A stretch of DNA of 64,000 bases from Comamonas antarctica (GTDB lineage: Bacteria > Pseudomonadota > Gammaproteobacteria > Burkholderiales > Burkholderiaceae_C): NCBI RefSeq assembly GCF_013363755.1, contig NZ_CP054841.1:124001-188000 (forward strand). The letters run 5' to 3'. This document shows, piece by piece, positions 25,169 through 36,107 of the stretch (the first letter of the stretch is position 1; the number at the start of each line of letters is the position of its first letter). A model generated the notes under the pieces. That model was given only the letters and a program-made list of their open reading frames with translations. It did not search any database and had not been told where the DNA came from. Made by a program: the position numbers and the translations under genes.

Positions 25169-26983
25169 TCACAGCGCTTCGGCGAGATCCGGCGTGGCCG
25201 AACCCAGCAAGGCCACCGCTGGCGCGTCCAGGGCTTCACAGGGCACGGCGCGGTGATCGGGCTCGCCCCACGCATAGTCGTAGAGCGCGGGCAGCAGACC
25301 CGTTGCCACGGCAGTGCCCGCAGCCACCAGCATGCCGTGGGTCTGCGCCACGACTTCCTTGACCATGCCGGTCATGACAGGCGTGCCATAGGACGAAAAT
25401 TCATTTTCAGCCTGGGCCACCGTGCGCTGGACTTCCAGCGCCCATTGCTGCCATTCGCCCTCGGTCCGGTCCAGGGGCGACATGAAATCAATGCTGCGCA
25501 GTGTTTTCAAGGCTTGCGCGCCAGGGTTCATGTCGCGCAGGTAGCCAACGCACGCGCCTTTGATCAGCGCCGCGCCATATATCGCTAAGATGGCCGCTGG
25601 CGCGTCGATCTTCTCGCCCACAGACTTCAGGCCGTCCGCGACGATGTTGTCGCCGCCGGCGATATGCAGCGACGCTATGGCCGTCGCCACCGCGGCCGCG
25701 CCGAACACGGGTGCCGCGGGCGGCAGGACCGCCGCACCGGCGAGCGCCATCAGCGCCGTGCCCTGGTAAAGCGACGCGTTTTGCGCGCCATGCTCCTTGG
25801 CCGCGGCCCAGACCGGTCCAAGCTGCTGCGCCGCGGCGTCGGAGGCGCTATCCCAAGCCCACTGTCCCTGCTGCGTGGCATAGCTGGAGGCAGCGCCAAC
25901 GCGCTCCGTGGCGGAGGCCCACACCGCCGACGCCTGGCAGGCGGCATGGCTGGTCACGTCATTCACGACCTGTTTGCCCGTGTCCAATGCCCACTTTCCA
26001 TTCTCGACGGTATAGGTGGACGCATCGCCAACGCGGTCCTTGGCAATAGCCCAGGCCGCGGGCACTTTCTCGACAGCATAGGCGGCCACGTCATTGAGCA
26101 CCTGTTTGCCCGCATCCAATGCCTTCGTTCCATTTTCGAGGGTGTAGGCGGACACATCGCCAACGCGGTCCCTGACACTCGCCCAGGCGGCAGTTGCCTT
26201 GTCGATGGCATGGGTGGCCGCATCGAGCAGAGACTCCTTGCCCGCTGTGAAGTGCAGCTCCCCACGCCCGGCTTGCGCCTCTTGCGCAGAAGGCTCGCGC
26301 TCGGCCGGCGCCTCTGCCTTTGCTGCGGCTTGCGCGGCAGCTTCCGCTTCGGCGGCAGCCTGCACGGGTGCAGCTTGTGCTGCGGCTTGTGCTTCAGCGG
26401 CAGCCTGTGCATCGGCTGCGGCTTGTGCGGTAGCTTCTGCTTCGGCGGCAGCTTGGGCAGCTGCGGCTTGCGCGGCGGCTTCCGCTTCGGCGGCAGCTTG
26501 GGCAGCTTGGGCAGCTGCGGCTTGTTCGGCAGCTTCTGCTTCGGCGGCAGCTTGAGCAGCTGCGGCTTGTTGGGCAGCCTGTGCATCGGCAGCGGCTTGT
26601 GCTTCGGCGGCGGCTTGGGCAACTGCGGCTTGTTCGGCAGCTTCTGCCTCGGCCGCGGCTTCTGCTTCAGCGGCAGCTAGAGCAGCTGCGGCTTGTTGCG
26701 CAGCCTGTGCATCGGCTGCGGCTTGTGCTTCGGCAGCGGCTTTCACGGCTGCGGCTTGTTCGGCAGCTTCTGCCTCGGCCGCGGCTTGCGCGGCGGCTTC
26801 TGCTTCAGCGGCAGCTGCGGCTTGTTGCGCAGCCTGTGCATCGGCAGCGGCCTGTGCATCGGCAGCGGCTTGTGCGGCAGCTTCTGCTTCGGCGGCGGCT
26901 TGCGCGCTAACTTCCGGCACTTCCTGCGCTACTGCGCCATCCAGGGCTTGGCCCGGAGATTGGTGTTCGACATCGTTCGACAT
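25169..26983 (-). CDS. Large alanine-rich protein with 44-residue repeats and membrane-like C-terminus
   Basis: A 604-residue protein of unknown function. Residues 28-225 are almost only Ala, Gln, Glu and Asp in short helical repeats (AAAEAEAAEQAA, AADAQAAQQ). Residues 266-352 hold two 44-residue repeats (each with DRVGD, then YTxENG, then ALDxGKQVxNDV), followed by a decayed third. Hydrophobic stretches near 408-440 (LMALAGAAVLPPAAPVFGAA) and again near the C-terminus suggest membrane association. The last residues, ALLGSATPDLAEAL, match the tail of the neighbouring helical protein. The start at 26983 (MSNDVEHQ) parallels MSMRNDIE of the paralogue. Confidence 0.75.
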   Translation of the reverse strand: MSNDVEHQSPGQALDGAVAQEVPEVSAQAAAEAEAAAQAAADAQAAADAQAAQQAAAAAEAEAAAQAAAEAEAAEQAAAVKAAAEAQAAADAQAAQQAAAALAAAEAEAAAEAEAAEQAAVAQAAAEAQAAADAQAAQQAAAAQAAAEAEAAEQAAAAQAAQAAAEAEAAAQAAAAQAAAEAEATAQAAADAQAAAEAQAAAQAAPVQAAAEAEAAAQAAAKAEAPAEREPSAQEAQAGRGELHFTAGKESLLDAATHAIDKATAAWASVRDRVGDVSAYTLENGTKALDAGKQVLNDVAAYAVEKVPAAWAIAKDRVGDASTYTVENGKWALDTGKQVVNDVTSHAACQASAVWASATERVGAASSYATQQGQWAWDSASDAAAQQLGPVWAAAKEHGAQNASLYQGTALMALAGAAVLPPAAPVFGAAAVATAIASLHIAGGDNIVADGLKSVGEKIDAPAAILAIYGAALIKGACVGYLRDMNPGAQALKTLRSIDFMSPLDRTEGEWQQWALEVQRTVAQAENEFSSYGTPVMTGMVKEVVAQTHGMLVAAGTAVATGLLPALYDYAWGEPDHRAVPCEALDAPAVALLGSATPDLAEAL

Positions 26984-27124
26984 GGCACTCTTTCTGTGGT
27001 TCGGTGTGATGCAGGCAATCTGATTGCGCATTCAACCTGTGCGACACAGGGGATCGACGGCCGCGGCAGGCCCTGGTCGTCCGGCCTGCCAACAAAGGTC
27101 GATTGCGCCAAATCAACCCGAACT

Positions 27125-30203: not shown

Positions 30204-30423
30204 GTATTTTGCCACGGGTTTACCCGAAGTGCTTGAAGGCTGACAAAAAGCTTGCGCTGCATCAAGGCGCGCACGCGCCGCCATTGGGGGCCTTCTGCTG
30301 GATGGCGTCGCGCGCACCAGAAAAGTGCAAAAGAATCGAAATAATGCGCGTTCGTGTTCCAACCGCTCCTCTTCTCTTGTAACAATACTTGCATAACCAT
30401 CTACAAAAGCAAAGAGGACACCG

Positions 30424-30909
30424 ATGGCGCGTTCCATCCTGGGCATCAAGACTGCCGGATCAGCGGGCGATTTGCGCACCGCGCCGGCCGGCAGCCGCAG
30501 CGCGCTGGACGGCGCGGCGCTGCAGGCACGCTTGCGGCAAAAGCGCTCGCCGGCCTATATCGAAGCCATGACCCGGCTCGACGCCGGCACGCAGCTGCAG
30601 GCCGCGCATGCGGCCCAAGCCACGCAAGGCCTGCTTGACGCCATCCGCCAGGAACTACCCGACGTCGCCATCGACGCGCTGCCGCTCGGCATCGTCGCCA
30701 AGTGCCACCTGGGCGCGCCGCACGAGGTGCACACGCTCACTTGTGCGGGCAACATCATCCAGCACTTCAAGACCGGCGAGGCCCTGCCCCCGCTGATGGA
30801 GCGCGCCCGCGCGCTGGCCCAGCATCCCGGCTACGCCTTCATCGAGGTCTACCCCACCCGGCTGATCACCGTCAGCGCCAGCGGCCAGACCGCCGTCATC
30901 GATATCTGA
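30424..30909 (+). CDS. Hypothetical protein, first gene of the Ycf46-like AAA+ operon
   Basis: A 161-residue soluble protein I cannot assign. The N-terminal 50 residues are basic and flexible; the rest alternates helices and strands (GIVAKCHLGAPHEVHTL, then FIEVYPTRLITVSASG) as in a small alpha/beta domain. AGAGGA lies seven bases before the ATG. It is the first of five tightly packed genes ending in an AAA+ ATPase, 12 bp before the next. No catalytic motif is visible. Confidence 0.8.
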   Translation: MARSILGIKTAGSAGDLRTAPAGSRSALDGAALQARLRQKRSPAYIEAMTRLDAGTQLQAAHAAQATQGLLDAIRQELPDVAIDALPLGIVAKCHLGAPHEVHTLTCAGNIIQHFKTGEALPPLMERARALAQHPGYAFIEVYPTRLITVSASGQTAVIDI

Positions 30910-30920
30910 AAGGTCTTTCC

Positions 30921-32654
30921 ATGAGTACAGATCGCATCATCCAGGTCGCAGACCTGAGCCTGATCCTCGGATCCCTGCGCAGCCTCAAAGGCGACATCGG
31001 CACCGTTTCCGGCCAGGTCGAGTCCGTCGGGCAGGAGCTGTCGCAGACCCGTTCCGAGCTGTCGCGGCTCGAGCAGGCGTTTGCCGACTTCGTCGAGGCC
31101 GACCTCAAGGCCAAGGAACTGTCGCTGGCCGAAACCCGCCAGGTCAAGGTGCGCCAGGAGCTGGAAACCAGCTTTGGCTACTACGCCGTCGTGCGCCGCC
31201 AGGCCACGGGCGTGCTGCAGGCGTCCGACGTGCAGCTGGTGCGCAAGGAAACGCTGCAAAGCGCCACCGAGGAATTGATGATCTCGGCGCCGCGCTATTG
31301 GCTGGCCCCGGCGCTGGTGGCGCTGTCGGCCTGGCTGGGCGACAAGCGCGAGCTGGCCACGCGCGCGCTGGCCGAAGCGCTGCGCCGCGATGATGAGAAG
31401 ACCTCGCTGTTCTTTGCGCTGATTGCGCGCCGCGCGGGCCGCATCGACGCCAACCGCACCTGGCTGGACCGCTACTTCGGCTTGCAAAACCCCTACCAGC
31501 TCGACCGCCAGACCGTGGTCATGATCGATGCCATGGCCAACGGCGTGTTCGGCGCCGATGTCACCATGCACTGCAGCAAGCGCGTCAGCGCCTGGATCGA
31601 CGAGCTGTCGCAGCAGGCCGGCTTCGTCGAGGCGCAGCGCGTCCAGTGGAGCAAGGCCCTGGTGTCCAAGGCGCCAAACACCGACCACGGCCAGCGCTAC
31701 AGCCATCTGCAGCGCCTGAGCCCGACCTGGCCGGCGCTCAACGCGGCCCTCAACGGCGTGGCCATGCACCAGGCGGTGCTCGCGCATTTCAAGGGCGTGT
31801 TCGACGGCGAGATCAAGGCCGCGCCCAGCGTGCTGACCGCGGTCGACGACCTGCTGAGCAAGCTGGTTACGCGCTTCGACGACGAGGAACTGCCGCTGCG
31901 CCGCCAGGAGGAGATGTGCCGCTTCATCATCGAGGAGAACGGCGACAAGCGCGCCGCCAGCAAGCGCTATGAACTGCAGAGCGCGGCGCTCGACACCGAG
32001 GTCGACTTCACGCAGCTGCTGACCAACGCCGCGATGCATCCCGAAACCTCGCATGTGACGCGCGCCACGCAGCGCTTTGCGATTGCCCACTCGCGCGACT
32101 GGATCGTCGATGCCCATGCCGATGTCACGGCCAAGGCGCGCATGGCCGTGCCGACGCAGATCGAGATCGCCATCGAGGACTGGAAAGGCAGCACCGCCCA
32201 GGGCGACAACGAGGCGCAATTGCTGGACAGCCTGACGCAGAGCATTGCCGCGCGCGAAGCCGCGGCACTGGCCGAGGTCAAGCTCACGGGCATGCACTGG
32301 CTGGCGGTGGCGTTTGGCATCGCCATGCTGTTCCTGTCGTTCAGCATGGGCTGGTTCAGCTTCGTGATCGGCGCCGCGGCGCTGGGCTGGGTGTGGCTCA
32401 CCTACCGCCAGCTCGACCAGCGGCGCGCCAAGGTCAAGGCCGACTTCGCCAGGCTGCTCGAGCAATCGACCCAGGCGCTGCGTGCCTGCCTCGCCGAAAC
32501 CGTGGAACTGCGCCGCGACATCGCCCGGCGCGATGCCGTGGCCGCCGAGGTGGCGGCGCTGCTGGGCGGCATCAGCCCCGAGCAGCACATCCTCTCATCG
32601 CATGACACGGTGCGCCGCGTCATGGTCAACAGCCCCGCAGGAGCCAGCGCATGA
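30921..32654 (+). CDS. Membrane protein with N-terminal coiled coil, AAA+ operon
   Basis: A 577-residue protein. Residues 1-75 form a heptad-like coiled coil (VSGQVESVGQELSQTRSEL). A long helical domain follows, including YWLAPALVALSAWLGDKREL and DDEKTSLFFALIARRAGR. Two membrane spans lie at about 458-495 (MHWLAVAFGIAMLFLS, then FVIGAAALGWVWL). A basic, helical C-terminal tail ends the protein. No enzyme motif is seen. Conserved companions of AAA+ ATPases with this layout suggest a membrane platform on which the ATPase acts. Its stop overlaps the next start (ATGA). Function unknown. Confidence 0.82.
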   Translation: MSTDRIIQVADLSLILGSLRSLKGDIGTVSGQVESVGQELSQTRSELSRLEQAFADFVEADLKAKELSLAETRQVKVRQELETSFGYYAVVRRQATGVLQASDVQLVRKETLQSATEELMISAPRYWLAPALVALSAWLGDKRELATRALAEALRRDDEKTSLFFALIARRAGRIDANRTWLDRYFGLQNPYQLDRQTVVMIDAMANGVFGADVTMHCSKRVSAWIDELSQQAGFVEAQRVQWSKALVSKAPNTDHGQRYSHLQRLSPTWPALNAALNGVAMHQAVLAHFKGVFDGEIKAAPSVLTAVDDLLSKLVTRFDDEELPLRRQEEMCRFIIEENGDKRAASKRYELQSAALDTEVDFTQLLTNAAMHPETSHVTRATQRFAIAHSRDWIVDAHADVTAKARMAVPTQIEIAIEDWKGSTAQGDNEAQLLDSLTQSIAAREAAALAEVKLTGMHWLAVAFGIAMLFLSFSMGWFSFVIGAAALGWVWLTYRQLDQRRAKVKADFARLLEQSTQALRACLAETVELRRDIARRDAVAAEVAALLGGISPEQHILSSHDTVRRVMVNSPAGASA

Positions 32655-32845
32655 ACCGCACGATCATTCCCGACAATACGCCCCCCGCCCGCCCCGGGCT
32701 GGCCCCCGCGCCGGCGGCGGGCTCGACTTCCGCCGCAACGCCCGTGGCGCAACCGGTGCCGGACGATGCGCGCGATGCACTGGCCGGCGCCCTGCCCGCG
32801 TGGGATCTGCTGCCGGCCACGCCCTTCATCCGCCGCGTGAAGTAA
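32651..32845 (+). CDS. 64-residue Pro/Ala-rich peptide with WDLLPATPFIRR tail
   Basis: A very short gene coupled to the previous one by an ATGA overlap, and directly followed by the next ATG with no gap. The first 45 residues are a disordered Pro/Ala linker; the end PAWDLLPATPFIRRVK looks like a short binding motif. Its position and perfect packing in the operon argue it is real. It might tether two partners of the system. Confidence 0.65.
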   Translation: MNRTIIPDNTPPARPGLAPAPAAGSTSAATPVAQPVPDDARDALAGALPAWDLLPATPFIRRVK

Positions 32846-33400
32846 ATGCCGCTGCCACCGACGGGTCCGCAGACCTACGCGCAATGGAGCGACTGTCTCG
32901 ACCGGCTGGCATCGGGCCTGGAAGACGATGCCTGCCTGGCGCAGATGGCGCGCGGCACGCTGGCCTGGAGCGGCGGCGTCGGTCCCTTGTTTGCGCAGCG
33001 CCTGGCCGATGAGTTCAATGCGCGGCTCACGCGCTGCTCCGAGCGGCTCACGCGCGATCTGCGCGCCGGCGCCGATGAAGCCAGCGTGGTGCGCGCCATC
33101 GTCAACGCGCGCCAGTCGCTGTTCTTCCTGCACCGCCTGGCCCAGCTGCCGGCCTTTGCCGAGACGCTGCGCAGCCACCTGGTGCGCGAGGTGCGCGGCT
33201 TTGCCGAGCGCTCGCAGCAATCGCTCGAAGACTCGGCGCGCGCCGACCGCAGCGGGCGCCTGCGCCTGCTGCTGCAAAACAATCCCTTGCTGCGCTACGA
33301 CACGCTGAGCTTGGCCGCTGTGCCCGAGGCCCCTGCGCCTGCCGCAGCACCTGCGGCCACGCCGCCCGCAGCCCCGCGGCGGCGCAATATCCTGATCTGA
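32846..33400 (+). CDS. Helical hypothetical protein, AAA+ operon
   Basis: A 184-residue soluble protein, all-helical by composition, with FLHRLAQLPAFAETLRSHLV and a long Pro/Ala-rich tail ending in RRRNILI. It begins one base after the stop of the 64-residue gene and ends 8 bp before the ATPase gene. No motif identifies it. The disordered tail resembles that of the 64-residue protein in composition and could be an interaction arm. Confidence 0.78.
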   Translation: MPLPPTGPQTYAQWSDCLDRLASGLEDDACLAQMARGTLAWSGGVGPLFAQRLADEFNARLTRCSERLTRDLRAGADEASVVRAIVNARQSLFFLHRLAQLPAFAETLRSHLVREVRGFAERSQQSLEDSARADRSGRLRLLLQNNPLLRYDTLSLAAVPEAPAPAAAPAATPPAAPRRRNILI

Positions 33401-33408
33401 AGCATTCC

Positions 33409-34959
33409 ATGAGCGACACCACCGAGTTCAAGGCCACCCTCACGCGCTATCTCAAGGCGCGGATTCCGTTCATCTCCATTCGCAGCGCGGAACGCGCGCG
33501 CGTGCTCGACCTGATGCGCGAGGTCGTGGCCACGCTCAACGCGCCGGTCTATGTGCACACGCTGTCGCAGGGCACGCGCGAACTCGCGACCGGCCGCTCG
33601 GTCAACGAGGACCGCTCGGCCGCGGGCGCCGTGGACTTCGCGAGCCAGCAGTTCGCGCAGCGCCAGAACCTGTCGGTGGTGCTGACCGAGATCTCCGACA
33701 TCGAGGACGACACCGCGTCGGCGCGCCACCTGCTCGACGTGGTGATGCTGGCGGCCGAGCACAGCGGCGTGGTGGTGGTCATCACCACCAAGCCGGTCTG
33801 GGGCCAGTTGCAGCGCGCCGGCATGTCGCTCGCGCTGTCCTACCCCACCGAAGACGAGATGCACGCCATCATCCGCGAGAACCTCGACGCCTACCGCAGC
33901 CACTTTCCCATCGAATGGGACGCCGACGACGAGCGCCGCGCCGCGGCCATCCTTGCCGGCATCTCGCGCATCGAGGCGGAAAACATTATTGCCACGCTGC
34001 TGGCCAACGGCCGCGTGAGCAAGGCCGACATGGTCGAGCTGATGCACGCCAAGGACCGCATCTTTGCCGACATCTCGGGCATCGAGCGCGTGGCCGTGCG
34101 CGGCACCGAGCTCAATGTCGGTGGCCTGGGCGGCCTCAAGTCGTGGCTCGACAAGGAGCGTCCGCTGCTCACCGCCGACCTGCGCGAGCGCGGCATCCGC
34201 CCGCCGCGCGGCGTGCTGCTGGTCGGCGTGCCGGGCTGCGGCAAGTCGCTGTCGGCCAAGGCGATTGCCGCCAACTGGGGCCTGCCGCTGTACCGGCTCG
34301 ACCTGTCGACGATCCACGGCCAGTACCTGGGCCAGAGCGAGTCGCGCCTCAAGGATGCGCTGGCCACCGCCGACCATGTCTCGCCCTGCGTGCTCTGGAT
34401 CGACGAGATCGAGAAGGGCCTCGCCGGCGCGCAGGGGGGCGGCGACGGCGGCACCTCGACGCGCCTGGTCGGCCAGTTCCTGTACTGGCTGCAGGAAGCG
34501 CGCGCGCGTGTGTTCGTGGTCGCCACCGCCAACGACGTCTCCAAGCTGCCGCCCGAGCTGCTGCGCCGCGGCCGCTTCGACGAGCTGTTCTTCGTCGACC
34601 TGCCCACGCCGCAGGAGCGCCGCGAGATTATCGACATCTACATCCAGCGCGGCCTGAAGCAGGCCATGCCCGAGGAGCTGATGACCGAGCTGGTCGAGCT
34701 GTCGGATGGCTTTGCCGGCTCCGACCTCGAATCGGCGGTGCGCGAAGTCGTCAAGCAAGCCTATCTCGACGGCGATGCCGCCGTGACGCCGGACCTGTTC
34801 CGGCGCAGCTTCATCAACGTGGTGCCGCTGTCCAAGACCGCGCCCGAACAGATCGAGAACATCCGCGCCTGGGGCCGCGAACGCGCCGTGCCGGCCTCGG
34901 GCCAGCCGATCGGCGCCGCGCCCAATCAGCCGCGCCCGCGGCGCCAGGTGCTGGGCTGA
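33409..34959 (+). CDS. Ycf46-like AAA+ ATPase
   Basis: A 516-residue ATPase. Residues 1-230 form an N-terminal domain of the Ycf46 type. The AAA+ module begins [10 protein letters not shown] (238-247). Walker A is GVPGCGKS (273-280), Walker B VLWIDEIE (328-335), sensor 1 is the Asn in VATAND (375) and the arginine fingers lie in LLRRGRFDE (384-392). The second half carries the lid domain ([15 protein letters not shown]). Ycf46 proteins are known in cyanobacteria and chloroplasts, where their role is poorly understood; here the setting is quite different. The ATPase probably remodels one of the four upstream products. Confidence 0.9.
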
Positions 34960-35350
34960 GCGCGGCGACGGGTGCGGGTGCGGGTGCGGGTGGACACCGA
35001 AGCGCTTGCCCGGCCCGCCCGTTCGCCCTGCGCCGGGCGAAACGCATATCCGGCTCGCTCTGAACCTGTCGAAGGGTGTAATCCGCTCATCCTGAGTCTG
35101 TCGAAGGATGCCACCCGTTCACCCTAGGCGGGCCCCCCTGAGCCTGTCGAAGCTTGGGTGTCGCGCCACCAACCTACGCTTGTTCGTACCTGACTCCTGG
35201 CCGTCCATCCTTCGACAGGCTCAGGACGAACGGAGGGAACCTTGGAAGCGCGTGTCCCGCTCACCTGAGCCTGTCCAAGGGCGCAAACCGCTCGCCCTGA
35301 GCCTGTCGAAGGGTGATCATCTCGAGTGAAGCCGCAATCCCGTCACCCCA
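34960..35350. repeat. Cluster of REP-like repeats and a GGGTGC microsatellite
   Basis: The 419-bp gap between the ATPase and YciI genes has no gene. It starts with 3.8 copies of GGGTGC (34970-34992) and then about six copies of the REP-like element: near 35051-35077, 35084-35110, 35115-35153 (with an insert), 35205-35232 (inverted), 35258-35283 and 35288-35316. Core is CGCTCGCCCTGAGCCTGTCG followed by AAGGGTG. Such repeats are common in this family and may pause transcription or bind proteins. Confidence 0.8.
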
Positions 35351-35378
35351 CACTCGCAGACACGGCACACGACACCGC

Positions 35379-35675
35379 ATGCTTTTTGCCATCATCTTCA
35401 CCGACAAGCCCGACCACGCTGACCTGCGTGCCGCCCACCTCCAGGCGCATATCGATTGGCTGGAACAAAACAAGGACGTGGTGCCGATTGCCGGTTCGCT
35501 GCGCCACGCGCCCGACGAGGCCGCGAAAGGCGGGCTGTGGATCGCCGAGGCAGACTCTCGTGCGCAGATCGAGGCGCTGATCCAAACCGACCCCTTCTTT
35601 GCCGCCGGCTTGCGCCAAAGCTACGAAATCCTGCATTGGTCCAAAGCCAACAGCGCGCGCAAGGTGCTTATCTGA
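35379..35675 (+). CDS. YciI family protein
   Basis: A 98-residue YciI-like protein. The N-terminus MLFAIIFTDKPDHADLRAAH and then HIDWLEQNKDVVPIAGSLR match the ferredoxin-like fold of the family with its putative catalytic His-Asp pair. Members are often accessory enzymes near dehydrogenases. It stands alone between a repeat cluster and convergent genes. Exact role unknown. Confidence 0.85.
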   Translation: MLFAIIFTDKPDHADLRAAHLQAHIDWLEQNKDVVPIAGSLRHAPDEAAKGGLWIAEADSRAQIEALIQTDPFFAAGLRQSYEILHWSKANSARKVLI

Positions 35676-35702
35676 GCGCTGCGGGGGGCGCTGCGTAAGG
35701 CC

Positions 35703-36107
35703 TTAGCGTCCTGCCAGCGCCTGCCCATATGGGCTTGCAAGAAAAATAGAAGCCTGGATGTTCAGCACCACGCTGCACCAGAAAACGGCACGAAACTGCG
35801 CCTTCGAGGATTTGTGCCGCAGCAGTTGCTGCGCCAGCAGCGCGCCCGGCCAGCCGCTGAGCAACCCAAGCCAGTGCAGCGTCTTTTCCGAGATGCGCCC
35901 TCTGCCTTGGCGCGCCGCCGACTTGTCGACAGCGTAGGCGAAGAAGCTCACAACGCTCCCTACCGGGTAGCTCCACAGCAGCCAGCGCGGCGGATAGCCG
36001 AAAAAATAGCCGGCCGCGAGCACGACCGGCAGGCACGCCATGGCCAGGATGCTGGCCATGCCCCACGGCGCACGCCGGGCGCGCGCGGGCCGCTGCGTCC
36101 CGCTCAC
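35703..36107 (-). CDS. DUF1294 family membrane protein
   Basis: A 134-residue membrane protein with about three spans. The pattern AYAVDKSAARQGRGRISEKTL followed by LLSGWPGALLAQQLLRHKSSKAQF is the DUF1294 signature. Its start overlaps the stop of the glutathione transferase gene (ATGA), so they are cotranscribed. The function of this family is not known; it is sometimes attached to cold-shock domains, which are absent here. Confidence 0.88.
   Translation of the reverse strand: MSGTQRPARARRAPWGMASILAMACLPVVLAAGYFFGYPPRWLLWSYPVGSVVSFFAYAVDKSAARQGRGRISEKTLHWLGLLSGWPGALLAQQLLRHKSSKAQFRAVFWCSVVLNIQASIFLASPYGQALAGR

Follow-up and report, generated by a model that had tools for sequence, protein, structure and literature searches.

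The window analysed here is a 64,000-nucleotide stretch of the Comamonas antarctica genome (contig NZ_CP054841.1, positions 124,001 to 188,000 of the forward strand); positions below are counted from its first letter. At 30424-34959, on the plus strand, it carries an operon of five genes, here called A, B, C, D, and E, which encode proteins of 161, 577, 64, 184, and 516 residues, respectively. These genes are a real, conserved, and apparently unnamed unit. Its ATPase, E, is a member of a known family. We propose, at a probability of about 0.5, that the operon specifies one membrane-anchored AAA+ remodelling machine whose parts come together through a common peptide code.

In such a machine, B would lie on the inner face of the membrane, held by a C-terminal hairpin and presenting a coiled coil and a surface resembling tetratricopeptide repeats (TPR). 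E would be the motor, expected to be a hexamer; D would be a helical partner, and C a disordered linker with two ends. The parts would be collected by two motifs: tag 1, which each of the five proteins has at an end, and tag 2 (PxWDLxP...RR), confined to C. A would be the likeliest reader of tag 1, with its own N-terminal tag acting as a competing pseudo-ligand or as an A-to-A link, and tag 2 would probably be read by the B/D/E core. Through ATP hydrolysis, E might then act on tagged parts or clients at the membrane by loading, unloading, or pulling them. The proposal draws on a gene order fixed in many phyla, the presence of A and B in an identical set of 8 genomes among the 53 of the genus, tags far more frequent than in control genes, tag-like stretches in neighbouring zinc-ribbon proteins, an unusual C protein (locus L062), Bacilli that lack A, the invariant AAA motifs, and the model of B. 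That its role is conditional, in stress or defence, is a guess.

A conserved five-gene unit

The genes and the parts of B and E referred to here are:

30424..30909, plus strand: gene A, 161 residues; disordered N-terminus, three helices, and a beta3-alpha-beta3 domain
30921..32654, plus strand: gene B, 577 residues; coiled coil (13-104), helical body, membrane hairpin, and helix to 549
31173..31574, plus strand: TPR-like part of B, residues 85-218
32289..32420, plus strand: predicted membrane hairpin of B, residues 457 to about 500 (modelled helices 457-476 and 478-549; hydrophobicity judged by eye)
32651..32845, plus strand: gene C, 64 residues; disordered Pro/Ala peptide bearing two short motifs
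32846..33400, plus strand: gene D, 184 residues; helical, with a disordered C-terminal tail
33409..34959, plus strand: gene E, 516 residues; Ycf46-type AAA+ ATPase with an N-terminal domain that lacks a P-loop and an active AAA domain
34225..34248, plus strand: Walker A of E, GVPGCGKS, residues 273-280 (invariant, 72/72)
34402..34407, plus strand: Walker B acidic pair of E, D332-E333 (72/72)

The place, strand, and sizes of these genes, as given in a preliminary description made from the sequence alone, were reproduced by the open reading frame (ORF) coordinates. So was the packing it reported, a 4-bp ATGA overlap of B and C, 0 bp between C and D, and 8 bp between D and E, except that the gap between A and B is 11 bp and not 12. 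Compared with a Variovorax copy, the synonymous and non-synonymous distances are 0.53 and 0.121 for A, 0.50 and 0.117 for B, 1.3 and 0.204 for C (dN/dS, the non-synonymous to synonymous ratio, about 0.16 over 58 codons), 0.75 and 0.147 for D (dN/dS about 0.20), and 0.45 and 0.036 for E, indicating five protein-coding genes, each under purifying selection.

Relatives of B number 1908 at an E-value of 1e-3 or better among 7996 scored candidates; among the 120 matches listed, those with a name are called 'hypothetical' or 'uncharacterized' and, once, 'chemotaxis protein'. A scan of one genome per species yielded 148 places, 79 of which were kept as loci (numbered with L; genomes carry a G), and five protein profiles were then iterated over all ORFs of 86 loci, the 79 plus 7 from the genus. 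Of the 86 loci, 78 have a profile match to A, all 86 to B, 77 to C, 83 to D, and 82 to E. In 63 of them the genes stand exactly as A-B-C-D-E, comprising 56 of the 79 named loci and 7/7 from the genus search. One of these seven (L004) is identical in DNA to L014, a Comamonas aquatica NBRC 14918 locus whose B is 76% identical to the window's, and others look, by their match figures, like repeats of L016-L019. L013, L024, L028, L031, and L074 deviate from this order solely by split, overlapping, or extra ORF calls. Gene calls in the loci are longest-ORF choices; the E of L013, L028, and L071 and the B of L074 each come out in two frames. Five Bacillota loci have the order B-C-D-E-A (E split in one) and one locus has B-D-E-A; the remaining loci are cut by a contig end or are without A or C, and L076 is a solitary B. 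The iterated profile that located C contains C's own motif, yet C always lies directly after B. The carriers span about eight phyla: Pseudomonadota, Bacteroidota, Bacillota, Actinomycetota, Acidobacteriota, Eremiobacterota, a Chthonomonas metagenome-assembled genome (MAG), and Fusobacterium.

The preliminary description had staked its reading on co-occurrence of the five genes in other genomes, on conservation of the 64- and 184-residue frames, and on the lack of a match to a named system. The five genes do co-occur, C and D are conserved, and the operon is without a name in the libraries (Pfam, NCBIfam, PADLOC, and PHROGs) or literature searched, across which the claim of 'no named system' holds. 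None of A to D belongs to a family at the curated cut-off in Pfam or NCBIfam.

Extra sequence accompanies the operon in places. L022:11935-13842 (Comamonadaceae) and L023:2781-4559 (a Thiobacillus MAG) have additional sequence between D and E, the called D being about twice as long, and L047:6092-7465 and L066:9114-9992, two Bacteroidota loci, have extra, mutually related membrane proteins between A and B.

Structure models were made of A and B only. The AlphaFold2 model of A has a mean predicted local distance difference test (pLDDT) score of 83.7. Among 55 aligned A proteins, R41, D53, G89, C94, L96, H103, I111, H114, Y137, E141, and G154 are invariant; none of the 55 members matches a Pfam family at 1e-3, comparison with solved folds gave no match, and no similarity to DUF1257 or DUF2997 was seen with three-sequence profiles, which make a weak test. 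B has no family above a curated cut-off and no PADLOC or PHROGs family. Its model suggests a membrane-anchored protein with coiled-coil and TPR-like parts, and the predicted coiled coil and hydrophobic C-terminal hairpin agree with its earlier characterization as a membrane protein with a coiled coil. C, previously called a peptide-sized Pro/Ala protein, proves to be a conserved gene found, like D, at the same place across phyla. For D (no Pfam match at 1e-3 in 35/35 members), the disordered tail described earlier is indeed seen, and the conserved end motif on D and on the other four proteins had been missed.

E had been described as an AAA+ ATPase with intact Walker A, Walker B, sensor 1, and arginine fingers, and the alignment of 72 E proteins bears this out: besides the Walker motifs listed above, in which G273-C277 and G278-K279-S280 are invariant, sensor 1 (N375) and both arginine fingers (R386 and R389) never vary. 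The idea of a stable complex at the membrane is now better founded, through co-occurrence, fixed order, and shared tags; that the ATPase works this complex is what we infer.

Terminal tags and their putative reader

Comparing the protein ends side by side reveals tag 1, R-x-[ILV]-[ILMFV], on termini of A to E, with K replacing R in some N-termini. In the window, the tags are:

30424..30444, plus strand: tag 1 on A, N-terminal MARSILG (pattern M-x{1,2}-[RK]-x-[ILV]-[ILMFV])
32613..32627, plus strand: tag 1 on B, RRVMV, residues 565-569 close to the C-terminus (R565 unvarying among 30 aligned sequences)
32651..32668, plus strand: tag 1 on C, N-terminal MNRTII (tag in 34/74 C proteins)
32792..32842, plus strand: tag 2 on C, C-terminal LPAWDLLPATPFIRRVK (pattern [PS].W[DNST][LI].P)
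33377..33397, plus strand: tag 1 on D, C-terminal RRRNILI (R.[ILV][ILMFV] in the last 6 residues)
34939..34956, plus strand: tag 1 on E, C-terminal RRQVLG (last 6 residues)

The last 6 residues contain tag 1 in 66/71 E proteins, 56/76 D proteins, and 24/79 B proteins, compared with 4/940 control genes, which, being longest-ORF choices, contain false frames. When the last 8 residues of B are considered, the count rises to 47/79 (control 13/940). The N-terminal form, counted at any possible start, is present in 57/71 A and 34/74 C proteins and in 52 of the 940 control ORFs, for which any M within the first 60 residues was allowed. At the other end of C, the last six residues hold tag 1 in 0/73; the tag 2 pattern occurs in 74/74 C proteins and within the last 40 residues in 73. 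The Flavobacteria illustrate the likeness of the ends: ARIIL on A, TKIIL on C, ARNII on B, GRKIIF on D, and KRSIII on E.

Two further observations extend the pattern. In the C protein of L062, which also has a zinc ribbon, the order of the motifs is swapped, as would be expected if they bind irrespective of position. In addition, genes for zinc-ribbon membrane proteins lie upstream of the operon, adjacent to it in L079, L085, and L086 and two genes off in L052, and the L052, L079, and L085 proteins, though not that of L086, bear tag-1-like stretches after the zinc ribbon (3/4). In L052:6331-9973, from a Lachnospiraceae MAG, this gene and a second one are additional co-directional genes ahead of B; the zinc-ribbon product has two tag-like stretches, and the other gene encodes an 886-residue HerA-like (DUF87) ATPase.

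The case for A as the reader comes from genomes without it. Eight Bacilli genomes with B have no A in the whole assembly (L077, L083, L087, L088, and four of the same order; all are drafts). Searches for A found it in 3/8 genomes in the first set and in 0/4 in the second, which had no positive control of its own; these four additional Bacilli came from 241 genomes of the order, with B in 5, one of them the centre, G455. The L044 genome is also without A, but its E is cut off and it is excluded from the count. In the eight A-less loci, the arginine tag is on E in 0/7 (complete E proteins) and on D in 0/8, while tag 2 on C is kept in 7/8 (C was not found in L107) and the B tag, R-N-I-x-[VI], in 8/8. 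Where A is in the locus, E is tagged within its last ten residues in 65/66 testable cases, and L052 and L072, whose E is tagged although the locus has no A, match A in another part of the genome. That A and the arginine tag of E are missing together suggests that A may read that tag, and the persistence of tag 2 where A was lost makes the B/D/E core its probable reader.

Several findings weigh against a code read in this way. Tag 1 is missing from the N-terminus of 40/74 C proteins, and D is untagged in 12/69 testable loci that have A, the Bacillota loci with the order B-C-D-E-A included. The genomes without A form a single clade on a long branch (about 2.4), probably reflecting one event, and their E proteins end in acidic-hydrophobic stretches (ETLI, DLDLI, VEII, and LEIF), so that a function of the tail may persist. 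Among Ycf46 proteins of other modules, 0/4 match the tag pattern, but 3/4 have arginine-hydrophobic ends (VRKLEM, GRKLAIED, and GRTFEF); such tails are possibly an older Ycf46 trait with another reader. In the single-chain AlphaFold models, no tag docks in cis (mean pLDDT 52 for residues 1-10 of A and below 50 for residues 562-577 of B), and Foldseek finds a weak likeness of B to TPR proteins (E-value 0.015).

Some of these points bear on a different reader. Tag 1 might be recognized by a host protein such as DnaK, or by E between adjacent subunits, rather than by A, an alternative that we consider rather unlikely. The tags are basic-hydrophobic and occur at either terminus, E itself bears tag 1, and NRLLLTG, a model peptide ligand of DnaK, resembles it; the tag-like, non-matching ends of the three Ycf46 proteins from other modules point the same way. 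Against this stand the A-less Bacilli, in which E has no arginine tag (0/7, compared with 65/66 where A is in the locus) even though E is present and bacteria of this kind retain DnaK. A as the reader of tag 1 remains the version we prefer.

Distribution, mobility, and role

The operon is rare and patchy. Within the genus, A and B were each found in 8/53 genomes, the identical eight. B is present in 2/398 Pseudomonadota genomes sampled, the window's own and one weak partial match, and D in 1/369 genomes of the class, again the window's own. The window's genome (G000, 5.03 Mb) has one full-length match to E, which is E itself, and one partial match to the AAA core. Comparison with a sister genome reveals an empty site:

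30277..35709, strand not applicable: segment missing in sister genome G472, which has about 709 bp where the window has 5.4 kb

A and B have no match in G472, G026, or G460. The operon's G+C content, 69%, is near that of its surroundings (67-68%). Mobile carriage is seen elsewhere: Streptococcus satellite phage Javan368 has a complete B-C-D-E-A at its right end, where two related satellites differ, and of two Komagataeibacter plasmid records with B, the one examined has A-B-C-D-E adjoining an IS3 transposase gene.

Two B trees were built from 56 proteins each, with rows that partly differ. The first omitted some rows, L013 included; in the second, L013 and the Fusobacterium, satellite, and plasmid rows were added and L044, L050, L061, and L084 removed. 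Both sort mostly by phylum, with 5 label changes (the minimum) in the first and 6 in the second, for which the minimum is 5. The second tree splits the Bacillota and nests the Fusobacterium copy among Bacillota copies, making a transfer between phyla likely; the Javan368 E shares 73.9% identity with that of Fusobacterium and 81.7% with a Lachnospiraceae E. A B protein 74% identical to the window's, encoded on a 5.9-kb contig of a Peptococcaceae MAG (L013:1312-5369), takes a position beside Variovorax, and this contig is probably misbinned. The same neighbours recur within Flavobacterium, within Chryseobacterium, and within a group of Bacilli, which looks like stable inheritance. In Chryseobacterium and Filimonas, a response-regulator-like gene lies 1.3-6.5 kb upstream of B (L054, L055, L056, L060, L061, L063, and L065), and the same zone contains another conserved gene, TPR-like by eye.

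These data divide between two roles, neither of which we hold other than tentatively. In the first, the operon would defend against phages or other mobile elements, B to E sensing infection at the membrane and the tags holding or recruiting A as an effector. The rarity, the empty site in G472, the satellite and plasmid carriage, and the likely transfer to Fusobacterium would suit this role, as would the invariant Cys, His, His, Tyr, and Glu of A. Some neighbours suit it as well. A gene for a CHAT protease lies next upstream in Pseudonocardia (L070:4911-8642), and long CHAT-related proteins are encoded within 8 kb in L079:17505-21287 and L089:14879-20047, giving 3/6 actinobacterial loci in total, a count that has no baseline. 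A CRISPR-like array of 9 copies (L076:8112-8753; repeat of about 37 bases, spacing 70-75) lies about 1.2 kb upstream of the lone B. KwaA, KwaB, DRT2, and DrmC are matched by one gene each in 148 flanking genes. However, strong defence matches are few in these 148 genes, drawn from 38 loci and likewise without a baseline. PADLOC 2.0.0 (2023 library) has no family for A to D, bar a stray 16-bit PglZ match of A, and gives for E AAA-core cross-matches and stray weak ones only; no nuclease, TIR, or other effector was recognized. The B tree follows phyla save for Fusobacterium and one MAG contig, and the Flavobacterium, Chryseobacterium, and Bacilli neighbourhoods look stably inherited. The lone B itself comes from Selenomonas felix; a fuller copy (L068: B, D, E, and A; C not found) lies elsewhere on that contig.

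In the second role, also doubtful, the operon would serve the cell envelope, as ancient housekeeping or stress machinery retained only in some lineages and engaged in membrane-protein extraction, complex assembly, or quality control. In favour of this role, the B tree mostly tracks phyla and several genera keep a conserved neighbourhood. Purifying selection on all genes, a G+C content near that of the surroundings, and the pairing of Ycf46 relatives elsewhere with other small partner proteins are also in its favour, but the few carriers even within one genus and the satellite and plasmid carriage are not. A toxin-antitoxin-like pair is very unlikely: in sgiAT of SGI1, an AAA protein related to the SpoVK/Ycf46/Vps4 superfamily is reported to be the antitoxin to a serine protease toxin (PMC10954446), and this operon shares the ATPase superfamily and mobile carriage but has no protease partner and five conserved genes, not two.

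Beyond the remodelling machine proposed here, we suggest with considerable reserve that it may typify a new class, in which A reads a terminal code carried by every subunit and also by client membrane proteins particular to a lineage, and a Ycf46-type motor assembles or disassembles a membrane complex, as a conditional immune or envelope-protection device found also on mobile elements. The order of the operon is kept from Comamonas to Flavobacterium, Pseudonocardia, and a Streptococcus satellite, and four of its five families are unnamed in the libraries searched, which marks a gap in bacterial cell biology. The terminal tag offers a directly testable entry to the system.

Other features were noted around the site. 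Downstream of the operon, window 35051-35315 has clustered palindromic repeats (CCTGAGCCTGTCGAAGG and variants) like repetitive extragenic palindromic (REP) elements, and similar stretches lie near the matching site in G026 and G460. In G026, which has no operon, two long, similar repeat proteins, ankyrin-like by eye, are encoded near that site (L097:4944-9552) and flank a transposase-like gene (IS110-like by eye). On the minus strand of the window, 25169-27031 is a 620-residue ORF with a long Ala/Glu/Gln repeat region.

Likeness to known systems

The nearest likeness is to the Ycf46 modules. E is 32% identical, over residues 7-504, to a Geminocystis cyanobacterial plasmid protein encoded beside DUF1257 and DUF2997 genes, and its match to phrog_8638 spans residues 6-512; with VCP-like PDB chains, the best match begins only at about residue 236. 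E is thus of the Ycf46 type over its full length, including the N-terminal domain without a P-loop, in line with the cyanobacterial Ycf46 style first ascribed to it. The likeness to these modules (Ycf35/DUF1257 and DUF2997) consists of E; of the four modules examined, three have an annotated DUF2997, one a DUF1257, and two a 4Fe-4S protein. The partners of the Ycf46-Ycf35-DUF2997 module are replaced here by A, B, C, and D, among which there is no DUF1257 or DUF2997 Pfam match. Several hundred plasmids, as well as phages of Pseudomonas and Mycobacterium, encode full-length Ycf46-type ATPases about 30% identical to an E of this system, whereas B turned up in a single phage record and 3 plasmid records. 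The accessible parts of the literature searched contained nothing on the mechanism of Ycf46-type ATPases, for whose study the system offers one setting.

IetAS pairs an AAA ATPase with an S8 serine protease. The AAA core of E matches models of IetA from about residue 257 onward but scores 75.8 bits against a cut-off of 510; E has an extra N-terminal domain, the partners differ from those of IetAS and sgiAT, and the operon has no protease gene. In LapB-FtsH, a membrane TPR protein is the adaptor of an AAA protease. E has no protease domain match, and the likeness would be that of a common repeat fold.

In their manner of working, the closest parallels are Vps4/ESCRT-III and p97 with its adaptors, in which an AAA motor deals with several partners whose short terminal motifs are read by a common module. 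The operon would be alike in working and shares the AAA superfamily with them; no homology was seen beyond the AAA core, and no MIT, UBX, or ESCRT-III domain was seen in A to D (no Pfam match above the cut-off). If A is the reader, the operon would be a bacterial case of a multi-part AAA+ machine built by one repeated short motif.

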